A program made the translations under genes and the position numbers. Below are positions 894 through 22,610 of a stretch of 24,421 nt of DNA, one piece after another. A model generated the notes under the pieces. It had not been told where the DNA came from, did not search any database, and was given only the letters and a program-made list of their open reading frames with translations. Source of the stretch: a virus; the IMG/VR virus record IMGVR_UViG_3300037488_000914, positions 1 through 24,421 of that record; one strand, written 5' to 3'. Every line of letters begins with the position of its first letter. Within the stretch, counting starts at the first letter, position 1.

Positions 894-2396
894 TTATAAT
901 GGTATCTGATAGATGTTATAATCGAAGTCTTCGGCGTCGTAGATCTTAGCCCGTTCGATGAAATGCTTTAAGACAAAATTTCGATGTTTCTTATATTGCA
1001 TATCATCAACGATGTCATAGAGGGTTGCCTTGTCCGATCTACCAATTCTTAATACTCTTCCGATACTCTGAAGAACCCGAATACGACTCTTTGACGGAGA
1101 AGCAAATATAATATTATCTAAGTTCTTAATATTCACACCAGTAGAAAAAACCCCGACACTTGCAACTATAATAGCATCCGTTTCGAGTTCTGTTATTTCC
1201 CGGACTTTTTCACGATCTTCCATTTCAGTGCCGCCATATATAAAGAATACTTTACGGGTCGAGTGAATTTTTTGAGAAATCATTTCGTGTAGTAACTTTC
1301 CATGTTTTGCTACATACTGAAATAATACTAAGGTATTTCCTTTTTGTGAAACTGTTAAATTTCTAATAAACTTATTGCGTTTTTCATTAGCAATAATCAT
1401 TCCTATTTCATCGGCATATTTTAGTTTACGAACAGTTTGACAATCTTCTTCATTATGTTTAAGAACAATACAATTGATTTTTAATTTAGCCAGTGTATTA
1501 GTATCCATCAATTGTTTGGTGGTAGTTGCTTGAAATACTGGCCCCGTTAAACCCTCAATCAACATCGAATCTGATTGAGCGCCGTTCAAGGTTCCAGTTG
1601 TACCAAATCGCCAATTGGCACCGGTGCATTTTACCAATATATTTTTAATCGAATTTGCCTTAGCCATATGACATTCATCAACAAGCACAAAACCGAACTG
1701 CTGAAAAAATGCTGGCGGTAAACGGTGTAGACTTTGCCATGTACTAATAACAATCTGTTTGTTTGTGGTTTTATCTTGTCCAGAATATATTTGATGTATT
1801 AATGCTTCTGTTTTAAATTCACGAGTTTCGTCGTATTTTTTAGCATATGTAATAAAATCATTAGTCATCTGAGATATCAAATTCAACGTAGGTACAATAA
1901 CCAAAGCTTTTCGACTATCTTTATCTATAAAGTGCTTTGTTAGAAGATATATCACACTACTTTTGCCACTAGCCGTTGGGGAAATGAATAACGTCTTGCG
2001 TTGTTCTAAACCTCGTTTAAAACAATTGAATTGATAATCTCGCAATTCAAACGGCAATTGCAATGATTGTATATATTCTTTTAAATCGTTGTCATCGATC
2101 TTTGTTGTCAACCAATTATATTCTATAGTATACTCTCTATCGTTTGCAAACTTTTCAATATGTTTGATAAGTCCACAATAGATGGTATTGTTTATACGAT
2201 TTAAAAATCTAATTCGTCCATCCCACATTTTCATTTTGTATGTTGGCATGAAATGGGCATTTGGAACTTTGAAAGTGAATGCGTCTGACAGCTCTGCTAA
2301 TATGGAAGGTTCAGCTTCAACACGAAAAAAAACTTGATCTATTTGGGTTAGTTTGATATCAGACACCAGAAGACCATTTTGTAAAATCGACCGCAT
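894..2396 (-). CDS. uvsW: UvsW-like recombination DNA helicase
   Basis: A superfamily 2 helicase of 500 residues, close to the 503 of T4 UvsW. UvsW unwinds branched recombination intermediates and R-loops and helps switch replication from origin-dependent to recombination-dependent. Visible motifs are Walker A SPTASGKSS (residues 139-147), motif II VDECH (239-243), motif III GTTGTL (265-270) and motif VI QSIGRVLRIGR (443-453). The first ~115 residues form a separate N-terminal part, as in UvsW. The start at 2396 overlaps the end of uvsY by 38 nt, so the two are likely cotranscribed and coupled. A UvsW-UvsY pairing is typical of T4-like phages. Confidence 0.93.
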   Translation of the reverse strand: MRSILQNGLLVSDIKLTQIDQVFFRVEAEPSILAELSDAFTFKVPNAHFMPTYKMKMWDGRIRFLNRINNTIYCGLIKHIEKFANDREYTIEYNWLTTKIDDNDLKEYIQSLQLPFELRDYQFNCFKRGLEQRKTLFISPTASGKSSVIYLLTKHFIDKDSRKALVIVPTLNLISQMTNDFITYAKKYDETREFKTEALIHQIYSGQDKTTNKQIVISTWQSLHRLPPAFFQQFGFVLVDECHMAKANSIKNILVKCTGANWRFGTTGTLNGAQSDSMLIEGLTGPVFQATTTKQLMDTNTLAKLKINCIVLKHNEEDCQTVRKLKYADEIGMIIANEKRNKFIRNLTVSQKGNTLVLFQYVAKHGKLLHEMISQKIHSTRKVFFIYGGTEMEDREKVREITELETDAIIVASVGVFSTGVNIKNLDNIIFASPSKSRIRVLQSIGRVLRIGRSDKATLYDIVDDMQYKKHRNFVLKHFIERAKIYDAEDFDYNIYQIPL

Positions 2397-2796
2397 TCTT
2401 GATCACAAACGCCCGTGAATGTATAGACTTGATAATATCTTTTAGAGCTTCAGTTTTTTCTTTTTGTAAAGAAACTTTAAGTAGAACGTCAATTAGATCT
2501 TTGTCGGCGTTTAGATATACATCTAAATCCTGTCGCATCAATTTTAAATCAAATTGTTGCCAACCAAACTCTTTTAATTCTTCGTCTGATAGCCGCCCAT
2601 AATAATATTCAGTTTTAATTTTTAATAACCGCCGGTATTCATATTCAGTTTTTGTGAGAAGTAGATTTTCTCTGGTATACATCTCATAATACTTGGCATG
2701 AAGTTTAGGAATCTTCAAAGATTCGTTTGCTAAATCGGTATTGTCGATGTTACAATCACCTTTCCAGGAATCGATAATTTCTTCAAGTTTACTCAT
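2359..2796 (-). CDS. uvsY: UvsY-like recombination mediator
   Basis: A protein of 145 residues (T4 UvsY has 137). UvsY loads the recombinase UvsX onto single-stranded DNA coated with gp32. The C-terminal pattern IKSIHSRAFVIKNAVDF lines up with T4 UvsY's IKSRGFAIKHIQDM segment, and the middle LNADKDLIDV matches LSADKDVLKV. A YYYGRLSDEE segment matches the YYSGRGDGDE region. The protein is helical and rich in Lys and Glu. It overlaps uvsW downstream. The assignment rests on remembered T4 sequence and on gene adjacency. No uvsX is visible in this window. Confidence 0.88.
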   Translation of the reverse strand: MSKLEEIIDSWKGDCNIDNTDLANESLKIPKLHAKYYEMYTRENLLLTKTEYEYRRLLKIKTEYYYGRLSDEELKEFGWQQFDLKLMRQDLDVYLNADKDLIDVLLKVSLQKEKTEALKDIIKSIHSRAFVIKNAVDFTKWSSGV

Positions 2797-2826: not shown

Positions 2827-3192
2827 TTAAGCAAGCTTTGTTTTTTTAAGTTTATCCTGAAACCATATAAGCAGTTTTGGATTATCTTTAAACAGGGTCA
2901 ATATAACGTCAGCATATCGCGTTACATATTCTTCTTCTTGTATATCGTTCTTAAATTTGATCTTATGAACTTCGTTGACGGCATGAAGTATTTCATGCAG
3001 TACGGTATTCGCAAACTCATCATCGCCCTGTTTACCAAATACTCGCAAGGTTTGTGCACTAAAATCACACTCTCCCATATCAATGTACTTCCCTTTTCTT
3101 TTAGTTTTATCTATATCAATTTTTTTGGAAACATGACGAAGTTTATAAACCGCGTAGCCGATCTTAACTTTCTTGGGAAGATGTTTTGACAT
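2827..3192 (-). CDS. Small HExxH zinc-metallopeptidase-like protein
   Basis: A protein of 121 residues with the zinc-metallopeptidase signature HEILH at residues 66-70 (TVLHEILHAVNEVHK). The two His would bind zinc and the Glu would activate water. The third ligand is not obvious; candidates are His-76 and acidic residues around 85-92 (IQEEEY). There is no signal peptide, so it should act in the cytoplasm. Similar short phage peptidases resemble the SprT or ImmA/IrrE type, and I cannot choose between them. The gene ends 30 nt before uvsY and has its own sigma70-like promoter at 3241-3269. Whether it cleaves a host regulator or is a structural relic is not shown by sequence. Confidence 0.65.
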   Translation of the reverse strand: MSKHLPKKVKIGYAVYKLRHVSKKIDIDKTKRKGKYIDMGECDFSAQTLRVFGKQGDDEFANTVLHEILHAVNEVHKIKFKNDIQEEEYVTRYADVILTLFKDNPKLLIWFQDKLKKTKLA

Positions 3193-3240
3193 ATTAGACT
3201 ATGTTATGATATATTAAAAAATCACATAACCCTAATACCT

Positions 3241-3269: not shown

Positions 3270-3328
3270 GTTAAAAGTGGTTGAAAATATTCAATGATAT
3301 GGTAAGAATATGAGTGTTTTTTATCAGT

Positions 3329-3336
3329 TATAAATA
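3329..3336 (+). promoter_or_regulatory. T4-type late promoter (TATAAATA)
   Basis: Perfect TATAAATA on the plus strand 13 nt before the ATG of the HNH gene at 3350. Initiation would fall only about 7 nt before that ATG, so the endonuclease message would be nearly leaderless. The promoter also serves the coupled tail gene at 4171. Confidence 0.55.
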
Positions 3337-3349
3337 ACAATAGATTAAT

Positions 3350-4174
3350 ATGCTGCAAAATAAATATTCAAAACATTATTGGTTATTGATAGAAAAAGCC
3401 AAGAACCGTGAAGTTCCAGCCGGTTATGTAGAAAACCATCATATTATACCCAAATCATGTGGTGGGGCGAATACATTAGACAATTTGGTTCACTTGACGG
3501 CCAGAGAACATTTTGTGGCCCATTTGCTGTTAACTAAGTGTTATGATAGTGTGGAACGCGGAAAAATGTTTTGTGCCTTACACTACATGGTTCATGGTCA
3601 ACAAAAGAAATATCATCAAATAAATTCTAGATTATATGAATATTATAAAAATGGTATTTCAATAACCGTTTCACAGGTTCACATGGGACGAAAGCGTTCA
3701 GAAGAAACAAAAAAGAAAATGCGAGATAGGTGGTCAACCCCGGAATTTAGAGACAAGATGTATAGATCACGGGTTGGAAAAAAACATTCAGAAGAAACAA
3801 AAAAGAAAATGTCGAAATCTATGAGAGGACTAAAACGTTCAGAAGAAACAAAAAAGAAAATGTCGAACTCCTGGACCAAAGCCCGTCGACTAAAACAATC
3901 AAATCGTACCATATCAAAAAAAACTCGAGATAAATTGTCAAACTCCCTCATGGGACACGTACTTTCTGAAGAAACTATAAACAAAATCAGGGAAGCTCAT
4001 ATTACCAATTTTTATAAAATACAATGTCCAGATGGTAATATAATCAAGATTTATAATTTACGAGATTTCTGCCGACGACACCCAACTATAAATCGGGCAA
4101 ATTTGCGCGGCACAATAACAGGCCGATATAAACATTCCGCTGGATTTAAAATTTTAGAAATAGGTAAAATATGA
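3350..4174 (+). CDS. HNH homing endonuclease with NUMOD3 repeats
   Basis: A free-standing homing endonuclease of 274 residues. The N-terminal HNH nuclease domain has NHHIIPKSCGG (residues 29-39) followed by NTLDNLVHLTAREHFVAH, the usual layout of phage HNH proteins. Residues ~112-220 hold repeated DNA-binding modules of the NUMOD3 type (GRKRSEETKKKM, GKKHSEETKKKM, GLKRSEETKKKM and a weaker LSEETINKI copy), which grip the target around the cut site. The C-terminal ~50 residues are a further basic region. The stop overlaps the start of the tail gene at 4171 in an ATGA, so the two are translationally coupled. It sits between a late promoter and that structural gene, which marks it as an insertion of a selfish element. 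No SD is seen before its ATG. Confidence 0.88.
   Translation: MLQNKYSKHYWLLIEKAKNREVPAGYVENHHIIPKSCGGANTLDNLVHLTAREHFVAHLLLTKCYDSVERGKMFCALHYMVHGQQKKYHQINSRLYEYYKNGISITVSQVHMGRKRSEETKKKMRDRWSTPEFRDKMYRSRVGKKHSEETKKKMSKSMRGLKRSEETKKKMSNSWTKARRLKQSNRTISKKTRDKLSNSLMGHVLSEETINKIREAHITNFYKIQCPDGNIIKIYNLRDFCRRHPTINRANLRGTITGRYKHSAGFKILEIGKI
3697..3862 (+). repeat. Three identical 25-nt repeats inside the HNH gene
   Basis: A 25-nt unit occurs without change at 3697-3721, 3787-3811 and 3838-3862 (spacings of 90 and 51 nt, both multiples of three). It encodes the SEETKKKM core of the NUMOD3 modules. A decayed fourth copy follows near 3965. Because silent positions are also identical, the copies look recently duplicated or homogenised. 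Confidence 0.85.
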
Positions 4175-4713
4175 CAGTTTCAAATATTAATTTCTTGAGC
4201 CAATTCGGGTTTCGTCTAGTTATAGCTAGATTGCCAGAAATCGAATATTTTCTTCAAAGGATAAATCTGCCTGGACTTAATCTTCCGGCGGCTACAAGAG
4301 CTACGCCCTTTGCATCACCCTTAGCATATCCCGGCGATATCAGTTTTAACGATCTAACATTAAGTTTCAAGATAGACGAAGATATGAAAAATTATCTTTC
4401 GATTTGGAATTGGATGGTGCAGCTGGGATTTCCACAGAACTTCAATCAATACAAACAAATTGCGACACGCAATACAGCATTGCAAGCATTTGAAGAGGGT
4501 GAAGTTACCAGCAACATTCGATTGATTGTTCTTGACAACAAACATAACTGGAATTACGAAATCGAGTTTACGTCGTGTTGGCCAACAAGTCTTAGCGATT
4601 TAAATTTTGGAAGTACAGACCCTTCAGTACAATATCTGACTGCGGAAGTTACGTTCAAATATCATTACTATACTATTACACCGAATACAGAAGCGTTACC
4701 CTGTCAGAGATAA
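4171..4713 (+). CDS. Tail-tube-fold structural protein (second gp19-like protein)
   Basis: A protein of 180 residues. It opens with a segment (FGFRLVIARLPEIEYFLQ) followed by INLPGLNLPAATRATPF and GDISFNDLTLSFKIDEDM, then a Trp-rich segment (YLSIWNWMVQLGFP). This pattern is known from tail-tube-like proteins of T4-type aquatic phages. The DEDMKNY segment corresponds to the NDEDFSVR region of the bona fide gp19 in this window (18338-18931). It could be a baseplate-proximal tube initiator (gp54- or gp48-like role) or a minor tube protein; sequence alone does not decide. It is translated from the HNH message by ATGA overlap and is encoded on the opposite strand to the main tail module. A gene follows convergently after 3 nt. 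Confidence 0.65.
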   Translation: MTVSNINFLSQFGFRLVIARLPEIEYFLQRINLPGLNLPAATRATPFASPLAYPGDISFNDLTLSFKIDEDMKNYLSIWNWMVQLGFPQNFNQYKQIATRNTALQAFEEGEVTSNIRLIVLDNKHNWNYEIEFTSCWPTSLSDLNFGSTDPSVQYLTAEVTFKYHYYTITPNTEALPCQR

Positions 4714-4716
4714 CAA

Positions 4717-4995
4717 CTAAGGTTTAACGTCACCGTTTCGCAAAATAGCTAAGTCCTCATAGCTCCCAGTAAATCGTCTATACCATTCCTGTTTGCAACA
4801 CTCTAACATTCCGACAATTTCGTTATGCACGGAATAGCAATATCTATCTTTATAAACCTGTTTTATCAATGAAGTTATAATATAATTAAGTTCACCACAT
4901 TCTTTTCCAGGTTTAGTAATAGCTTTTAAATTCTCGGCGAGTTTTGATATATTTTCATCATAAACAATTCTATTAACCGGATCGATGTATGGCAT
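4717..4995 (-). CDS. Conserved small protein, DUF6899-like
   Basis: A protein of 92 residues starting MPYIDPVNR, with GELNYIITSLIKQ, a MLECCKQEWYRR segment and an NGDV ending. This arrangement (MPYID, GELNY, LECAK-x-E-x-YRR, YE..K...NGDV) matches the small DUF6899 family, which is widespread in phages and has no established function. The start codon overlaps the stop of the upstream gene by one base (TAATG), so the pair is coupled. The protein is probably helical and cytoplasmic. Confidence 0.7.
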   Translation of the reverse strand: MPYIDPVNRIVYDENISKLAENLKAITKPGKECGELNYIITSLIKQVYKDRYCYSVHNEIVGMLECCKQEWYRRFTGSYEDLAILRNGDVKP

Positions 4996-5471: not shown

Positions 5472-5518
5472 CATATTTTTAATTACATGAAAATTCCATT
5501 TTTTACTAAATATATTAT

Positions 5519-7770: not shown

Positions 7771-8373
7771 ATGTCTGCACAACGACTAGGTTCAATATTA
7801 ACTAACATAACAGGCACGAGTGGTCAGATTTTGCGTGTTAATACGGCAGAAACTGGATTTGAATTTGTGTCTCCACCAGTAATGCCAGTTTATACAATCA
7901 CTAACGATACTACAGATCGTATCATAGACGCCAATAACTCAAATTTAGACGAATTGTCAGATGTGCTCAGTACACTAATTAAAGATGTTAATACAACTTA
8001 TATCGGCGCGGGGGGCATTTCCCCCTTTACTTGGTCGACGTCGGAGCAGACTTGGCCATTTGAGAAAGGGCCAAGTGGCGAAACCCTATATGCTAAAGAA
8101 ATTAGTTTAGGAGCCTTGCCAAATAGCGGAGAAAAAGATGTCGCTCATGGTATAAGCAATTTTAATGCTGGTGATGACACGTTTTTCCTCAACGTTCACA
8201 TGAGAGTAAGTTCAACTGTTTGTAGACCCCTGCCATATTGTTTAGTCGACAATTCACAACTATCTGGCCAAATTTGGGTTGGCATCTATAGCACGTATAT
8301 TTTTATTCTCGATGCCGTAAATTATTCATCGTATACTGCGGTTGCACGAATTATATACAAAAAAAGTGGTTAA
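7771..8373 (+). CDS. Fibre/adhesin-like structural protein, paralog 1 of 3
   Basis: A protein of 200 residues. The N-terminal block (QRLGSILTNITGTSGQILRV and on to ETGFEFV) resembles short modules common in phage tail fibres, where GTSGQVL-type strands precede a distal domain. TITNDTTDRIIDAN, WSTSEQTWPFEK, a LPNSGEKDVAHGISNFNAGD segment and the C-terminal IYKKSG are shared with the next two genes. The LPN...VAHGI segment is typical of C-terminal fibre domains. The region just before IYKKSG differs most from the paralogs (VCRPLPYCLVDN). Host recognition or a decoration role is inferred. The gene is on the plus strand, opposite to the head and tail module. Confidence 0.6.
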   Translation: MSAQRLGSILTNITGTSGQILRVNTAETGFEFVSPPVMPVYTITNDTTDRIIDANNSNLDELSDVLSTLIKDVNTTYIGAGGISPFTWSTSEQTWPFEKGPSGETLYAKEISLGALPNSGEKDVAHGISNFNAGDDTFFLNVHMRVSSTVCRPLPYCLVDNSQLSGQIWVGIYSTYIFILDAVNYSSYTAVARIIYKKSG

Positions 8374-8392
8374 TTTTAAACAAAGGTAATTC

Positions 8393-8986
8393 ATGGCCGC
8401 GCAACGATTAGGTTCTATATTAACGAATGTAACTGGTACTAGTAAACAAGTGCTCCGAGTTAATGCAGCTGAAACCGGTTTCGAATTTGTATCGACTGGT
8501 AGTTTACCAACATATACAATTACAAACGATACAACAGATCGCATTATCGATGCCAATGATGTAACGTTAGATAAATTTTCAGACGTTCTTTGCACAACAA
8601 TCAAAGATATTGGTACAGTATATAGTGGAGGTGGCGTAAGTACATTCCAATGGTCTACTTCAGAACAAGTTTGGCCTTTTGAAAAAGCCAGTGGTGGGGC
8701 AACTCTCTACTGTAAAGAAGTAAATTTTGGCACACTACCGAACGCAACAACCAAAAACGTAGCACACGGAATTAGCAATTTTAACGCCGGTGACGATTTA
8801 TTTTTTATGAACGTTATTCGCAAAGTAAGCACAACACGATATATACAAATTCCATGTCCAAGACCAGATAATATGGCCTATCAAGCTTACGCAGGGGTGG
8901 ACAGCACAAACATTAATATCTGGAATGGATACGACATGTCTTCTGATACAGCTATTGTTAGACTTATATACAAAAAAAGTGGTTAA
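8393..8986 (+). CDS. Fibre/adhesin-like structural protein, paralog 2 of 3
   Basis: A protein of 197 residues, a close paralog of its neighbours. Conserved blocks are residues 3-33 (QRLGSIL to EFV), 41-55 (YTITNDTTDRIIDAN), 85-98 (FQWSTSEQVWPFEK), 114-131 (TLPNATTKNVAHGISNFN) and the IYKKSG end (192-197). Residues 145-180 are divergent (STTRYIQIPCPRPDN). It starts 19 nt after paralog 1, behind a leader with an AAAGG SD that is nearly the same as the leader of paralog 3. This suggests that gene and spacer were duplicated together. There is no signal peptide or membrane segment. Confidence 0.6.
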   Translation: MAAQRLGSILTNVTGTSKQVLRVNAAETGFEFVSTGSLPTYTITNDTTDRIIDANDVTLDKFSDVLCTTIKDIGTVYSGGGVSTFQWSTSEQVWPFEKASGGATLYCKEVNFGTLPNATTKNVAHGISNFNAGDDLFFMNVIRKVSTTRYIQIPCPRPDNMAYQAYAGVDSTNINIWNGYDMSSDTAIVRLIYKKSG

Positions 8987-9006
8987 TTTTTAAACAAAGG
9001 TAATTC

Positions 9007-9603
9007 ATGTCTGCTCAGAGATTAGGTTCAATACTTTCCAATGTTACAGGAACCAGTAAACAAGTATTTCGTGTTAATACAAGCGAGACTGGATTTGAAT
9101 TAGTCACGCCTGCCACTCTGCCAACCTATACTGTAACCAACGATACTACAGACCGTATCATAGATGCCAATAATGTTAATATTGATAAAGCTTCAGATGT
9201 TCTTAGTACGTTGGTTAAAGATGTAACAGCCATTTATAATGGAACGAGTGGATCGTCGACATTTCAATGGTCAACCAGCGAACAAGTGTGGCCTTTTGAG
9301 AAGGCATCTGACGGTAGTACATTATACGCTAAGCAGATTAATTTTGGCAGTTTGCCCAACAACGGTCAAAAAAATGTTGCTCATGGTATAAGTAATTTTA
9401 ACCCAGGCAATGATACATTTTTTATGCACGTTTTACGAAAAGTTAATTCAATATATTTTATACCAATACCATCAGCAAGATGTGATAATATTGTTATTCA
9501 AATACAGGCAGAAATAAATGGAGCAAATGTAGCCATTTATGATGGTTATGATGCATCGGCGCAATCTGCAATCTTTAGAGTAATATATAAGAAAAGCGGA
9601 TAA
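9007..9603 (+). CDS. Fibre/adhesin-like structural protein, paralog 3 of 3
   Basis: A protein of 198 residues with the same block order as paralogs 1 and 2: QRLGSILSNVTGTSKQV, TVTNDTTDRIIDAN, FQWSTSEQVWPFEK, a LPNNGQKNVAHGISNFN segment, and IYKKSG. Like the others it is most different near residues 145-185 (SIYFIPIPSARCDN and IYDGYDASAQ). By eye it is closer to paralog 2 than to paralog 1 in the middle region. It begins 20 nt after paralog 2 and is followed by hairpins and a terminator at 9602-9660, so it closes the rightward unit. All three may form hetero- or homotrimers; that is inference. Confidence 0.6.
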   Translation: MSAQRLGSILSNVTGTSKQVFRVNTSETGFELVTPATLPTYTVTNDTTDRIIDANNVNIDKASDVLSTLVKDVTAIYNGTSGSSTFQWSTSEQVWPFEKASDGSTLYAKQINFGSLPNNGQKNVAHGISNFNPGNDTFFMHVLRKVNSIYFIPIPSARCDNIVIQIQAEINGANVAIYDGYDASAQSAIFRVIYKKSG

Positions 9604-9689: not shown

Positions 9690-10976
9690 TTATAACAAAT
9701 TCAAGACCTTAACACGTCTATAGTAAATATTAGTATTAACAGTTAGCGATCCATCGCTATTACCGTCAACATTACTAAACGGATTAGCCACAATTCCATA
9801 TCTGGTTTTGAAGCCGATCTTCGGTTGGAAGGTCGCAGGATCTAATGCTTTTACAAGCTGTAATGGAATGTAAGGACAATAGAAAATACCTGCATCATAG
9901 GCGTTTTTACCCTTATAACCAACCACGTAGAAATTATCATTGGTGGTGGAAACATAAGGATCGATATAAACATCTAAACGACCATTCAAACGACCGACAA
10001 AGGTATTACCAGTGTCGTCAACAGAGAGTTGGTCTTTCAGATGATCGCCGTAATCAAGTAAGCCAGCCATTGACAAGGCGCTCGCCACATCGCTAGATGT
10101 TAGCAATACATTGCCCTTTCCACGTCTGGTTTCTTTTGCGATTTGGTTAGCGTCGCGTTCAATCTGGAACATAAGTCCCTTGAACTTCTCAACCAACCAA
10201 CGACCATTCGAGTCAATATCTAAATCAAATGAACCAGGAACGGTTACATTATTCTGGGCACCAGCAACGGCGCACATATAGATAGTACGAATGACTTCGC
10301 GATTAATTTCGGCATTGATTTCAGCTGACAAGATGTTAGCTAACTCGGACTCGGCATCGAGGCCATGAATAGCTTTCAAATCTTGCTGTAATTCAACGGT
10401 GAATTCAGCTTTCAAAGCACGGGTCTTAGCAGTTACGCTAATACGATCAATCGAGAACGCCATTTCTGGAATAGCGGTCGGATTACCTAATTGCTCACCA
10501 ACTGCGGCAGCTAAACCACGACCGGTGTTTAACGCTGGATCATTTGGATCAAGCGGCAAAGTGTGGGTGCCAGTTCCCGAAAAAGCCGTATCAGCTTCCT
10601 TGAACAAGGCTTCTTGCCCGTTCTGTGCGCTATAACGACTCTTCAAGGCGAAAATCAACCCAACTGGAGCGTTCATCGGTTGTACACCGCAAAGATCAAA
10701 CGCGATCAGGTTAGGCATCATACGGCGGACCATGGCGATTAGCACTGGATCATATCCCTTCAAATTGGCATTACCGTTATAGGTAACCCCAGCGCCTACT
10801 TGGTTTTGGATCGTTTCCACTAGCATACCATCGGTGTTGGCTTCTCTCAACGCTTTTTCTTCGTTTTCAAGAAGGACAGCCGTGACCGCTTTGCGGAAAG
10901 GATCATTAATCTTCCCAATCTCAGGGCTATCTAATAGTTGGCCCCATTTCTTGGAAAGGTTGTCGATATTATACAT
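9690..10976 (-). CDS. 23: Major capsid protein (T4 gp23-like)
   Basis: A protein of 428 residues (T4 gp23 has 521). The signature PNLIAFDLCGVQPMNAPVG is nearly identical to the T4 segment PNLIAFDICGVQPMNSPTG. The N-terminal ~54 residues correspond to the scaffold-binding propeptide. LVE at 52-54, followed by Thr-55, fits the T4 prohead protease rule (Leu/Ile-x-Glu) and sits at the position of the T4 cleavage site; LLE (35-37) is another candidate. It forms the hexamers of the capsid. It starts 19 nt after the gp22 stop behind a strong AAGGAG SD, so it is translated from the gp22 message. A terminator follows at 9644-9660. A gp24-like vertex protein is not seen in this window. Confidence 0.95.
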   Translation of the reverse strand: MYNIDNLSKKWGQLLDSPEIGKINDPFRKAVTAVLLENEEKALREANTDGMLVETIQNQVGAGVTYNGNANLKGYDPVLIAMVRRMMPNLIAFDLCGVQPMNAPVGLIFALKSRYSAQNGQEALFKEADTAFSGTGTHTLPLDPNDPALNTGRGLAAAVGEQLGNPTAIPEMAFSIDRISVTAKTRALKAEFTVELQQDLKAIHGLDAESELANILSAEINAEINREVIRTIYMCAVAGAQNNVTVPGSFDLDIDSNGRWLVEKFKGLMFQIERDANQIAKETRRGKGNVLLTSSDVASALSMAGLLDYGDHLKDQLSVDDTGNTFVGRLNGRLDVYIDPYVSTTNDNFYVVGYKGKNAYDAGIFYCPYIPLQLVKALDPATFQPKIGFKTRYGIVANPFSNVDGNSDGSLTVNTNIYYRRVKVLNLL

Positions 10977-16781: not shown

Positions 16782-18287
16782 TTATCTCCAAATATATACT
16801 AAATTACCACAATCAAAAAGTTTATAAAATCCGTGTTCTTCCATCATTTGAAATTCTGTTTTATTGTCATCATAATCATCAAACAGTTTTTTAAGTTTAT
16901 GTTTCTGAAACTTGTTCCGTGACATTAACTTTAAATCATTTTCATGATAATAAAAATAATTAGAGGTAGTTTTGTGAGATAGAACAAAACCAATTGCGTT
17001 ATACATTTTTCCAGTAGAGAACCTTCTGTCAGCATACGATACTACACTTTTCGGTTGATATTTATTAGTATAATATTTAAATAGTTTTGAAGCTCCACCA
17101 ATTACAGTTGTATATATTTTATTACAGAATCTAGTTAATTCAATATCGCACGATTTTAAAAATCTTGGCTTAGCAAAACACATCACCGCTACAATTTCAT
17201 TATTATACTTTAGCGCCAAATTAACACTAGAATTCATTACGCCTTGACGATGGTTTTGTTCTAAAAATAAATTGGCTTCTTTAGCCTTAATTTCCACAAC
17301 TTGGCACTCTCGGCCATATAGGCGCTCTTTGAATATTCCAAGATGTGCGGCTATGATAGATTTACAGATTTCTTCTTTGAGCAACCATTCATTTTCAAAG
17401 AACTGTAGAATTTTAATACCCTTTTGTGTACATTGTTCTAATTTATGCAATTGGCCTTCTTTGTCGTTTCGGTGCCAATAGCAGCCATTGTATTCAATTG
17501 CAAGTTTTCTTTCTGGTAAATATATGTCAAGTTCTTTTGGACTTATAATAAGTCGCGTGTTCTCTTGAACTTCTCCAGAATATATAGATTTGATATAGTC
17601 AACTATTTGTTTTTCTTCTTTTGAAATTTTACAATAATTGTTTGTTGGTACATTATATCTTTTACATAGTTGGTCAATAAGAGCAGACGATACTCCATTT
17701 TCTTGAGCAATGACAGTATGCGGCTTTTGATTCACGACGTGTTCGGTATATAAAAGATCTCTATTAAATTTATCCGATATCTTGGGCACTTTGGCCCGCT
17801 CTTCTCTATATTTTTTAGACTGAAGATATGAACAATGCCCGTATTTTTCTTGACACGTTTCTTTGATTTTCTGTTTAGTAATATCTAATAAGTTTGGATT
17901 TTTAACGCCGTATTTTTCTAAACAGGTCTGTTGAGCTTTTTGTATCTTTAAAGAATCTTTATTGACACAATCTGACGAACAATACACGTTAAATACTTGA
18001 TTAACCCTCGAAAATCTTACTGGGTTTCCACACACCTTACATTTTGGCTGTTCTTTGATATCATTTAGTATACAATATACCCGAATGCGAATTGAAGAAT
18101 TTTCTGGTAAAAAGTTGGTATTGTTAATTATGTCATGATATATATTTGTCCAATTTCTTTTTTCCCACCAATCGATACAACAAGCCCGCGCATTAAATTT
18201 GTCATTTGGATTAATCAAAAGAAAACGAATATTTGTTAGAAACGTTTTCAAATCAAAAAATAGTTTATTGTCACATTGCATAGTCAT
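16782..18287 (-). CDS. Vsr-like (EDxHD-type) homing endonuclease
   Basis: A protein of 501 residues. There is an N-terminal zinc finger (CKVC at 83-86, then C103 and C107) and two YG-type DNA-binding repeats (CLEKYGVKNPN and CQEKYGHCSY, 122-153). A helix-turn-helix-like segment follows (TVIAQENGVSSALIDQLCKRYNV). The nuclease core is KELDIYLPERKLAIEYNGCYWH (251-272), with Glu, Asp and His as in very-short-patch-repair-type homing enzymes such as I-Bth0305I. A C-terminal domain carries GGASKLFKYY, SYADRRFS and FQKHKL, frequent in phage Hef-like endonucleases. It interrupts the conserved gp19-gp20 order, has its own TATAAATA at 18330-18337 and a hairpin before its start. The start is MTM (second ATG two codons on). 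Confidence 0.8.
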   Translation of the reverse strand: MTMQCDNKLFFDLKTFLTNIRFLLINPNDKFNARACCIDWWEKRNWTNIYHDIINNTNFLPENSSIRIRVYCILNDIKEQPKCKVCGNPVRFSRVNQVFNVYCSSDCVNKDSLKIQKAQQTCLEKYGVKNPNLLDITKQKIKETCQEKYGHCSYLQSKKYREERAKVPKISDKFNRDLLYTEHVVNQKPHTVIAQENGVSSALIDQLCKRYNVPTNNYCKISKEEKQIVDYIKSIYSGEVQENTRLIISPKELDIYLPERKLAIEYNGCYWHRNDKEGQLHKLEQCTQKGIKILQFFENEWLLKEEICKSIIAAHLGIFKERLYGRECQVVEIKAKEANLFLEQNHRQGVMNSSVNLALKYNNEIVAVMCFAKPRFLKSCDIELTRFCNKIYTTVIGGASKLFKYYTNKYQPKSVVSYADRRFSTGKMYNAIGFVLSHKTTSNYFYYHENDLKLMSRNKFQKHKLKKLFDDYDDNKTEFQMMEEHGFYKLFDCGNLVYIWR

Positions 18288-18330: not shown

Positions 18331-18337
18331 ATTTATA
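18330..18337 (-). promoter_or_regulatory. T4-type late promoter (TATAAATA) for the homing endonuclease
   Basis: Perfect TATAAATA on the minus strand directly after the gp19 stop. Initiation ~7 nt downstream would fall inside the 5' arm of the hairpin at 18301-18330, removing its outer base pairs. Confidence 0.55.
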
Positions 18338-20946: not shown

Positions 20947-22596
20947 TTATCGTTCTTTGTCCTGGGGAAATAACCAGGCCGATTCGGAGACTATATACAA
21001 ATCTCCAGGTTCCAACACTTCCATTTGATTTAAATTGCTCTGATGGTCGTCTACTATAACAAAAGGTATATCCTTAAAGACTTCCTGTTGATTCGCAACC
21101 AAAGATTCCCTGATATTACTATTAGTTAGGTCTTTGAAATTCTTTTGGTTTGATAACCAGCCAAATAAAACCAGTGTCATTACTAAATCGTCATTGGTGC
21201 CAGAATCTCCCGCGAATGAGCCAAGTTTTGATACAAAGGTTGTCATTTCAGAAATAGTATCAAAATCAGTAACTATTAATTGATCATTTTCGATCAACGT
21301 CTTAAGGTTTACACACCCGATATTCTTAGTTTTTTTGGTTGTCATCACACCAATTTTACCCTGAGAAAACGACATTTCTTGTGTTGAAAGTCTAGTATTT
21401 TTAACAGTGTATATAAGATTTTCATATTCTAATTCATACTTTAAAGCATCAGCCACTTGAGAACCAGCGTCGTTGGTTTCAATTAACAACCAAGCATTAT
21501 TATATTTTTGACCAATTTCAGCAATAACATTTGGAAAAATTAGCGGTGGAATTTTGTTTGAACGATATTTGGCTACAAATTTAAATGGTAGCTGTGTCAC
21601 GTCAATAATCGACATCACAGAAAAATCGTTAGCATCACCGCGAGCAACATCAACACATGCAACATAGGTGTGTTTAGGTTGTGGTTTTTCGTAAACATCT
21701 AAACATTCCTGTGAATATGTTGGTTGTTGGAAAACCAAATTTTTAAGTTTCGAACTAGCAATTAAAGTGTTACTAACTGAACCGAAAAAGGAGCAGCCAT
21801 ATTCTTGATCGAAAGCTTCAGCACCTATGTTCCTAATCGTTTCGTCGCGCCATTTGTCATCTCTTCCTGGAACTTCACTCCAGTGCATTGTGAAAGGCAC
21901 GTACCGATTCTGTTTTTTCTCAGCTTCAGTCCAGAGCTTATAAAATAAATTTACACCCTTTGGAGTTGATACAATAATAATTTTTGTTGTGGTTCCTGCC
22001 GTAATTGTGGGATAGACCGATTTCATAAAATCGTCTGACACATTGTTGTGGACATGTGCAAATTCATCTAGTACAAGACAATTTATACTTCCAGATCGCC
22101 CAGTTGAACCCGATGTAGAATCAGATGAAATTTTTGAACCATTCTCTAATTCAATCGACGATTTATTCCACTCGATGACACCTTGTTGAATCCACTTAGG
22201 TAAATTTTCATATGCCAATTTAACACGATATAAAATTTCTTTAGCTGTTTTATTCCTATTAGCTAAAACAACAATGTTTTGACTGTCTTTAAATATTGAT
22301 AACCACAGCACATAACCCACGTAACTAATTGTTTTTCCAATCTGTCTTGGACATAACATAATCGAAAATCGATTATCGTTGAAATTGCGAATCATTTTTT
22401 CTTGATATGGTCGTAATTGACACTGAATCAATCCTGCATCAAGATTAACAATTTTAAGATAATTGTTAATAAAATATATGGGATCTTTTGAACATTTAAG
22501 AATTTCTTGTATCTGTTCCGCAGTAAAGTCAAGCTTCACTCCCGCTTTTTTCAGTCGCGGGTTGGCTAAATATGTCGATTTAAAAAGTGATGTCAT
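20947..22596 (-). CDS. 17: Terminase large subunit (T4 gp17-like)
   Basis: The DNA-packaging ATPase and nuclease, 549 residues (T4 gp17 has 610). LRPYQEKMI (61-69) is the adenine-binding-like segment. Walker A is LCPRQIGKT (81-89), Walker B CLVLDEFAHV (173-182) and the coupling motif VSTPKG (209-214). The C-terminal RNase-H-fold nuclease begins with VACVDVARGDANDFSV (312-327) carrying the first catalytic Asp, and LLIETNDAGSQVAD supplies the next acidic residue. The N-terminus is shorter than in T4. It lies 27 nt after gp16, as in T4. A TATAAATA at 22603-22610 is only 6 nt from this ATG. Confidence 0.96.
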   Translation of the reverse strand: MTSLFKSTYLANPRLKKAGVKLDFTAEQIQEILKCSKDPIYFINNYLKIVNLDAGLIQCQLRPYQEKMIRNFNDNRFSIMLCPRQIGKTISYVGYVLWLSIFKDSQNIVVLANRNKTAKEILYRVKLAYENLPKWIQQGVIEWNKSSIELENGSKISSDSTSGSTGRSGSINCLVLDEFAHVHNNVSDDFMKSVYPTITAGTTTKIIIVSTPKGVNLFYKLWTEAEKKQNRYVPFTMHWSEVPGRDDKWRDETIRNIGAEAFDQEYGCSFFGSVSNTLIASSKLKNLVFQQPTYSQECLDVYEKPQPKHTYVACVDVARGDANDFSVMSIIDVTQLPFKFVAKYRSNKIPPLIFPNVIAEIGQKYNNAWLLIETNDAGSQVADALKYELEYENLIYTVKNTRLSTQEMSFSQGKIGVMTTKKTKNIGCVNLKTLIENDQLIVTDFDTISEMTTFVSKLGSFAGDSGTNDDLVMTLVLFGWLSNQKNFKDLTNSNIRESLVANQQEVFKDIPFVIVDDHQSNLNQMEVLEPGDLYIVSESAWLFPQDKER

Positions 22597-22602
22597 TACA
22601 AA

Positions 22603-22610
22603 TATTTATA
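22603..22610 (-). promoter_or_regulatory. TATAAATA immediately before gp17
   Basis: A perfect late-promoter core, but only 6 nt before the gp17 ATG, so transcription would start at the start codon. It is either a leaderless arrangement or a chance match in AT-rich DNA. Confidence 0.3.

Follow-up and report, generated by a model that had tools for sequence, protein, structure and literature searches.

A Mob-type HNH homing endonuclease gene between a T4-type late promoter box and an inverted gene 3 homologue in an uncultured T4-like phage

In an uncultured T4-like phage, a free-standing HNH homing endonuclease gene lies between a T4-type late promoter box and the homologue of gene 3 (gp3), and its stop codon overlaps the gp3 start. 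We think it fairly probable that a Mob-type HNH homing endonuclease gene (HEG) was inserted at or next to the gp3 start, downstream of the gp3 late promoter, that the unit of promoter, HNH gene and gp3 was inverted, and that gp3 would now be read as a second cistron.

Results

Gene layout of the window

The stretch analysed here (the window; 24,421 bases) is a whole IMG/VR virus record and a single uncultured metagenomic contig. It is that of an uncultured bacterial virus related to phage T4. Its minus strand carries gp17 to gp23 and uvsY/uvsW, and the nearest gp23 in a phage collection was the major capsid protein of Pelagibacter phage HTVC008M (59.4% identity). An earlier, sequence-only reading of the window had described a late box, an HNH gene and a tail gene in this order on the plus strand, with the HNH stop overlapping the start of the tail gene. 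The box, both open reading frames (ORFs) and the shared ATGA are present as claimed (Table 1), and library matches agree with the identity of the two genes (PHROG 655 and, for gp3, PHROG 45). Elsewhere in the window, three tandem plus-strand ORFs of 200, 197 and 198 aa, similar by eye, occupy 7771–9603 between a deaminase-like gene and gp23. A second homing endonuclease gene (PHROG 3339) lies at 16782–18287, between gp19 and the genes preceding gp20; TATAAATA occurs at 18337–18330 and is followed by a hairpin that, by eye, is terminator-like.

Table 1. Features around the HNH gene and gp3, in window coordinates
Feature	Position	Strand	Evidence or remark
uvsY	2359–2796	-	Pfam UvsY, 1.8e-25; in other loci downstream of gp3 and codirectional with it
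Divergent neighbour, PHROG 1233	2827–3192	-	Flanks the inverted unit
Sigma70-like promoter candidate, 5' of HNH gene and gp3	3186–3215	+	Consensus scan
TATAAATA, T4-type late promoter box	3329–3336	+	Predicted +1 near 3342
Free-standing Mob-type HNH homing endonuclease gene	3350–4174	+	PHROG 655, NUMOD3 repeats
TATAAACA, one-mismatch late box in HNH gene	4127–4134	+	Candidate internal promoter
AGGT, SD-like site of gp3 in last HNH codons	4162–4165	+	Anti-SD duplex -3.7 kcal/mol
ATGA, HNH stop overlapping gp3 start	4171–4174	+	ORF list
gp3 homologue, tail terminator/tail completion, tail-tube fold	4171–4713	+	Inverted relative to gp23, uvsY and uvsW
Convergent neighbour, DUF6899	4717–4995	-	Ends 3 nt from gp3
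gp23, major capsid gene	9690–10976	-	In other loci on the same strand as gp3 and upstream of it

The HNH protein matched the homing endonucleases of PHROG 655 (E = 1.6e-43) and Pfam NUMOD3 above the cut-off (6.1e-12); Pfam HNH scored 20.5 bits, just below its cut-off of 21.4. The catalytic motif is intact, with H30, H31, N45, H54 and H58 invariant across eight aligned HNH sequences. Seven aligned phage relatives have the HNH residues in common with the window protein, to which they are 38–42% identical. All seven end in a cysteine/histidine stretch, which we take to be a zinc finger; the window protein has no such C-terminus. The gene contains four 51-nt repeat units of 61–100% identity. Alignment searches returned at least 80 HNH relatives, and a scan of viral contigs for close ones gave two partial relatives among the matches listed. 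By these matches the gene belongs to a homing-endonuclease family, and its product is a predicted endonuclease. The HNH start has no Shine–Dalgarno (SD) sequence (anti-SD duplex +0.4 kcal/mol). Folding of RNA 3270–3400 gave a z-score of -1.67, equalled in 10 of 200 shuffles; this is suggestive only of an I-TevI/mobE-like hairpin that would conceal the HNH start in longer transcripts.

The protein encoded by the overlapping gene matched PHROG 45 (tail tube; E = 1.5e-34). Among the 40 matches listed, many of the annotated relatives were gp3, tail completion or sheath stabiliser proteins, and others were tail tube proteins. The gene occupies the place of gp3 between uvsY and gp23, but it is inverted and other genes are interposed. 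On these grounds its product is assigned to gp3, the tail terminator, of the tail-tube-fold family.

Promoter candidates

TATAAATA occurs four times in the window, an ordinary number (3.22 expected). All four copies are located no more than 60 nt ahead of an ORF start on their own strand, in zones that make up 3.8% of strand positions, and the chance of such a placement at random is ≈ 2e-6. The 8-base late box of T4 begins at -13 according to the available part of PMC2988020. If the box runs from -13 to -6 here as well, transcription would begin near 3342, which leaves 8 nt to the HNH ATG. In sequence and placement the upstream box fits a T4-type late promoter.

This box had been called the only visible promoter for the tail gene, which goes too far. 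The sigma70-like site upstream (TTGACA-18-TATATT) agrees with the consensus at 11 of 12 positions, with a TG ahead of the second hexamer; such a consensus match is not evidence of function. This strong site overlaps the start codon of the divergent gene. One-mismatch late boxes are also present inside the HNH gene, for example TATAAACA 36 nt before gp3. They occur in 29% of 60-nt pieces of the gene and, being so frequent, are no evidence of a promoter, yet they forbid the word "only"; as an internal gp3 promoter, TATAAACA is possible but unproven. Upstream of gp17 (terminase; window 22594–22610), TATAAATA ends 6 nt before the ATG with no SD, which makes the gp17 mRNA a candidate for a leaderless or near-leaderless message. 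None of 10 relatives had a late box at the gp17 position.

Late boxes stand against gp3 in relatives without an insert

For comparison we gathered loci with gp3, uvsY and gp23, plus two HNH matches and three phage records. We left out locus L060, which is the window itself, four duplicate views of included contigs, and the HEG-derived loci L143 and L147–L232. The set comprised 146 distinct regions upstream of gp3 in which gp23 was also visible, and the 100 with a gp23–gp3 gap of up to 250 nt were taken as insert-free. The first M of the ORF was used as the gp3 start; it is wrong for some loci (e.g. L062 and L065), so that some gaps are too long.

ATAAATA was found within 40 nt of the gp3 start in 62 of the 100 insert-free regions (49 of 60 in a smaller set). 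Another TAAATA stood within 40 nt in 32 of the remaining 38, and six had not even TAAATA. By these counts a late-type box usually stands against gp3 in insert-free relatives, a favourable outcome of the check that the sequence-only reading had proposed. No close, HNH-free sister of the window was among the matches listed, which came from non-exhaustive scans with a few peptide patterns; the best identities to the window among them were 44% for gp3 and 62% for gp23. We therefore infer the exact insertion point from distant relatives.

The insert-free regions have two kinds of gp3 leader. The box ends 4–7 nt before the gp3 ATG in 18 of the 100 (at exactly 5 nt in 16), and not one of the 18 has an SD of -3.5 kcal/mol or better. 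It ends 8–40 nt before the ATG in 44 regions, 36 of which have such an SD. Spacer class and SD presence were thus strongly associated (Fisher 8e-10; the contigs are not fully independent). A 4–7-nt spacer was also present in five of the 46 regions with larger gaps, one of these five with an SD. Close spacing was rare at other starts: of 13,459 ATGs on the plus strand of such loci, a number that includes the gp3 starts, 23 had ATAAATA 4–6 nt upstream. At gp23 a box at 4–7 nt was found in 0 of 129 cases, being mostly 24–44 nt away where present, and at gp20 a box at 5 nt was found in 1 of 25. With T4 geometry, a 5-nt spacer would put +1 on the A of the ATG and give a leaderless mRNA. Judged by this spacing, the gp3 late mRNA of some relatives appears to be leaderless. 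Candidates with TATAAATA, a 5-nt spacer and no SD include L072, L095, L127, L130, L136 and L138.

The HNH leader in the window reads TATAAATA-ACAAT-AGATTAAT-ATG, and the gp3 start reads AAAAT-ATGACA. Removal of AGATTAAT and the HNH gene would give TATAAATA-ACAAT-ATGACA, which matches the 5-nt class and is our proposed empty site.

The gp3 unit is inverted

Comparison of gene orientation across loci revealed an inversion of gp3 that is absent from the sequence-only reading. gp23, gp3 and uvsY were codirectional in 161 of 161 other loci with all three genes (some contigs are near-identical, so independent cases are fewer than 161), and the window was the lone exception (1 of 162). The order gp23, gp3, uvsY was found in 153 loci by strict ORF limits and in eight with overlapping stop-to-stop limits. 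A further 34 one-anchor loci agree; one, L139, shows gp19 instead of gp3. The relatives' order is gp23, gp3, uvsY, uvsW, and the promoter–HNH–gp3 unit of the window is inverted against it, so read-through from gp23 cannot serve gp3. We looked for inverted repeats as inversion points and found none convincing; the best pair flanking the unit (2795–2820 and 5493–5518) is 26 nt, AT-rich and 73% complementary. The available part of PMC3037559 attributes small synteny breaks in T4-like phages to mobile elements, which agrees with an inverted unit beside a homing gene.

Translation of gp3

An in-frame TAA at 4165–4167 makes the ATG at 4171 the sole possible ATG start of gp3. The duplex of its AGGT is close to those of the tandem genes at 7771–9603 (-3.9 to -4.0 kcal/mol), and its score is equalled by 13% of 783 other window ATGs, which makes it a moderate SD. 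Around the start, predicted folding is weaker than in most shuffles (z = +1.38); in the RNA fold prediction a weak centroid hairpin encloses the AGGT and AUG. Inside the HNH gene, gp3 thus has a moderate SD of its own; the candidates for a separate promoter there are the one-mismatch boxes.

Start overlaps did not distinguish HEGs from other genes. In a set of 88 loci, ATGA was found in 10 of 68 codirectional HEG-to-neighbour pairs (window counted) and in 45 of 392 other pairs (Fisher 0.42), and all start overlaps in 24 of 68 versus 105 of 392 (Fisher 0.19). SD strength in overlaps was equal to that of controls (median -4.2 versus -3.7). The overlap was therefore discarded as a special HEG feature. 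The SD-like AGGT and the little predicted start structure indicate that gp3 initiation independent of HNH translation is possible and that strict dependence on it, as had been claimed, is unlikely. Since a late box abuts gp3 in insert-free relatives, transcription of gp3 probably comes through the HNH gene. The related claim, that loss of the HNH gene would be punished, is accordingly plausible for transcription; for translation, the AGGT and the empty sister phages described below speak against it.

The gp23–gp3 gap as a landing site

The gp23–gp3 gap exceeded 250 nt in 46 of the 146 distinct regions, some of them inflated by a wrong start. Twenty-five ORFs were compared with Pfam, PHROGs or both: 24 from the 31 insert ORFs that, after deduplication, had a length of 90 aa or more, and one small ORF of L099. 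Ten of the 25 had no match at E 0.001 in the libraries tried. The others included homing endonucleases of PHROG 314 (L016 and L119) and PHROG 3339 (L018), a GIY-YIG protein (L275), a T5orf172-domain protein with weak GIY-YIG similarity (L134), and cargo consisting of an ammonium transporter (L022), a NifU-like protein (L061), a fatty acid desaturase (L267) and a peptide deformylase (L297). Judged by these matches, homing endonucleases and host-like cargo have entered this gap repeatedly. Among other gp3 loci, a window-like HNH ORF between gp23 and gp3 was present in L032 only, where it sits upstream of the gp3 late box. That relatives always have the HNH gene at this place is thus false. Elsewhere, the uvsW homologue of L097 (12815–15129) is divided in two, with an intervening HNH ORF, a candidate intron or intein.

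ATAAATA remains within 40 nt of gp3 in 14 of the 46 insert regions, L018 and L032 included; another 17, among them L275 and L134, carry it solely at a greater distance upstream, and it is missing from the gap in the other 15. L018 and L032 carry HEGs in the gap and still have a late box against gp3, so that an HEG there need not displace the box; L016 and L119 have no ATAAATA in the gap. The order in L275 is TATAAATA, GIY-YIG gene, small ORF, gp3, with no box near gp3. Like the window, L275 has an HEG between late box and gp3, but the HEG is of another type and there is no inversion. As evidence on insertion, L018, L032 and L275 cut both ways. The box of L134 stands ahead of four ORFs, the last of which overlaps gp3 as TAATG, and in L099 a non-HEG ORF with ATGA lies between late box and gp3; an upstream ORF overlapped the gp3 start in 4 of the 146 regions. 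The gap HEGs (L016, L018, L032, L119 and L275) resemble that of the window in lying in the same gap upstream of gp3. They differ in being codirectional with gp23 and, L032 excepted, in being of GIY-YIG or PHROG 3339 types.

Related HEGs at the gp4 junction

Six of the seven aligned HNH relatives head the gp4–gp2–gp3 late operon, and that of RB16 precedes gp6. HEGs at the junction of late promoter and gp4 were found in Klebsiella phages UTI-K1 and R3_1, Providencia PSTRCR_121, Morganella Rgz1 and E. coli UPEC03. These five are of the same endonuclease family as the window protein (38–41% identity). Like the window gene they head a late operon, their stop overlaps the next gene (gp4, by 11 nt; in UPEC03 by 1 nt) and the SD of that gene lies inside the HEG tail; unlike it, they target gp4 instead of gp3, show no inversion and have a different C-terminus. 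The UTI-K1 and PSTRCR_121 HEGs also have their own SD, unlike the window HNH gene. The HEG of Clarke_MM3 is annotated without overlap, and that of PSTRCR_127 is flanked by a late box on both sides, again without overlap.

Empty sisters of two of these phages were available. Klebsiella JD18, which is empty, reads CTTATAAATA...TATTTATAAGGAGGCCACT-ATG of gp4 (TATAAATA...GGAGG...ATG). UTI-K1 has nearly the JD18 sequence up to the second box, followed by the HEG, whose last codons hold TAAGGAG just before gp4. EC-F1 (empty) and UPEC03 (with HEG) form a second pair, in which no TATAAATA was seen. An HEG on the promoter side of a virion gene, overlapping it and holding its SD in the HEG tail, is by these comparisons a recurrent arrangement, and HEG-free phages exist.

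In both pairs with and without the HEG (loci L149/L309 and L150/L308), identity reaches 99% on the upstream flank of the HEG and falls to 88–90% on the downstream, gp4 side. In UTI-K1 (L150; 2458–2502 and 3153–3603) a stretch of 36–45 nt precedes the HEG and gp4 is annotated as two pieces. The stretch is common to most Escherichia/Shigella among the matches listed and is perhaps a promoter carried with the HEG.

Discussion

Origin of the arrangement

In the explanation that we favour, a free-standing Mob-type HNH gene would have inserted at or beside the gp3 start codon of a T4-like phage and taken over the late promoter of gp3, which would have become the second cistron of the late mRNA. Translation of gp3 would begin at the SD-like site within the HNH tail, whether or not assisted by ribosomes terminating at the overlapping stop, and the unit, inverted relative to the relatives' order, would receive no read-through from gp23. 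We infer the transcription starts and the order of insertion and inversion. Insertion is supported by the late box within 40 nt of gp3 in most insert-free regions, by the 17 of 46 insert regions (L275 among them) with ATAAATA only farther upstream, by the related HEGs at the late promoter–gp4 junction with empty sisters (UTI-K1/JD18 and UPEC03/EC-F1), and by the invariant HNH motif together with an SD-like AGGT for gp3 and none for the HNH gene. It is weakened by the 38 of 100 insert-free regions without ATAAATA within 40 nt, and the inversion by its occurrence in a single metagenomic contig.

A more detailed but less probable history can be put forward tentatively. gp3 may once have been leaderless (TATAAATA, 5 nt, AUG); an HEG landing at the AUG would have captured the promoter and would now supply the SD, and the unit would then have flipped, with the endonuclease driving or fixing the rearrangement.

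It is unlikely that the HNH gene brought TATAAATA along, or that gp3 uses an HNH-internal promoter, so that the upstream box would be the HEG's own and nothing was displaced. Insert-free relatives have a late box at gp3, and the ACAAT after the window box resembles the relatives' 5-nt spacers before gp3. Late boxes with one mismatch towards the 3' end of the HNH gene nevertheless suit such an origin, as do the extra stretch before the UTI-K1 HEG, recurring in other T4-like phages, and the embedded promoters known for seg and mob genes from the available part of PMC2988022.

We consider addiction by coupling quite improbable. Under this hypothesis gp3 translation would require ribosomes arriving from the HNH gene, loss or breakage of that gene would deprive the phage of a tail protein, and the selfish gene would be kept for this reason. 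The ATGA overlap suits the hypothesis, as do the location of the best gp3 promoter candidates upstream of the HNH gene and an AGGT that is only a moderate SD, enclosed by a weak predicted hairpin; promoters embedded in HEGs are described as favouring retention in the accessible text of PMC2988022. Against it, gp3 has an SD-like AGGT where the HNH gene has none, its start folds less than shuffles, overlaps are neither enriched after HEGs nor stronger in SD than controls, and empty sister phages exist in the gp4 case. Precise loss of the HNH gene would put the promoter back against gp3.

An assembly artefact is a poor explanation of the inversion. The contig is a single uncultured IMG/VR record and 1 of 162 loci, but no gene on either side is broken, 3 nt separate gp3 from its convergent neighbour, and the best inverted repeat is the short, imperfect one described above. 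We regard it as very improbable that the HNH gene has lost its mobility and been domesticated as a fixed partner of gp3 (e.g. a late regulator), in spite of its tight packing with gp3 and a C-terminus unlike that of the aligned relatives, given that the one window-like HNH ORF at other gp3 loci (L032) lies upstream of the gp3 late box.

The arrangement illustrates how the promoter of a virion gene may be appropriated by a selfish endonuclease gene, apparently with no lethal effect on the phage; the virion gene retains a start signal in the parasite's tail. The JD18/UTI-K1 and EC-F1/UPEC03 pairs make promoter takeover testable in cultured phages. The inverted gp3 connects a homing gene with the disruption of a gene order that is constant elsewhere. 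The comparison also brought to light a group of relatives with seemingly leaderless gp3 late mRNA.

Comparison with known systems

Literature searches on homing endonucleases with late promoters, translational coupling, inversion or gene order, and ribosome sites or downstream genes, as well as on leaderless late mRNA in T4-like phages, yielded no description of the arrangement apart from what PMC2988022 says. A virion gene parted from its promoter with its SD in an HEG tail, or an inverted gp3, was not found in the portions of the literature available to us. The available parts of PMC3037559, PMC9004378, PMC2988020 and PMC3468402 held nothing further on it. In its available part, PMC2988022 describes inserting HEGs that displace promoters, several that harness upstream promoters, and promoters embedded in seg and mob genes, which favour retention of the HEG. 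To this extent the general idea that HEG insertion displaces or harnesses promoters is already in print.

The same part of PMC2988022 offers two close comparisons. MobE of T4 and Aeh1, between nrdA and nrdB, is like the window gene a free-standing HNH HEG in a polycistronic unit, with a start/stop overlap and an upstream promoter. Unlike in the window, the start of the HEG overlaps the stop of the upstream gene (mobE overlaps nrdA as UAAUGA), and the downstream gene has its own promoter. SegG of T4 resembles the window gene in that expression of an essential neighbour is entangled with the HEG. It differs in that the gene 32 promoters are embedded in the HEG, with no separation of gene and promoter, and in that the Seg proteins are GIY-YIG enzymes.
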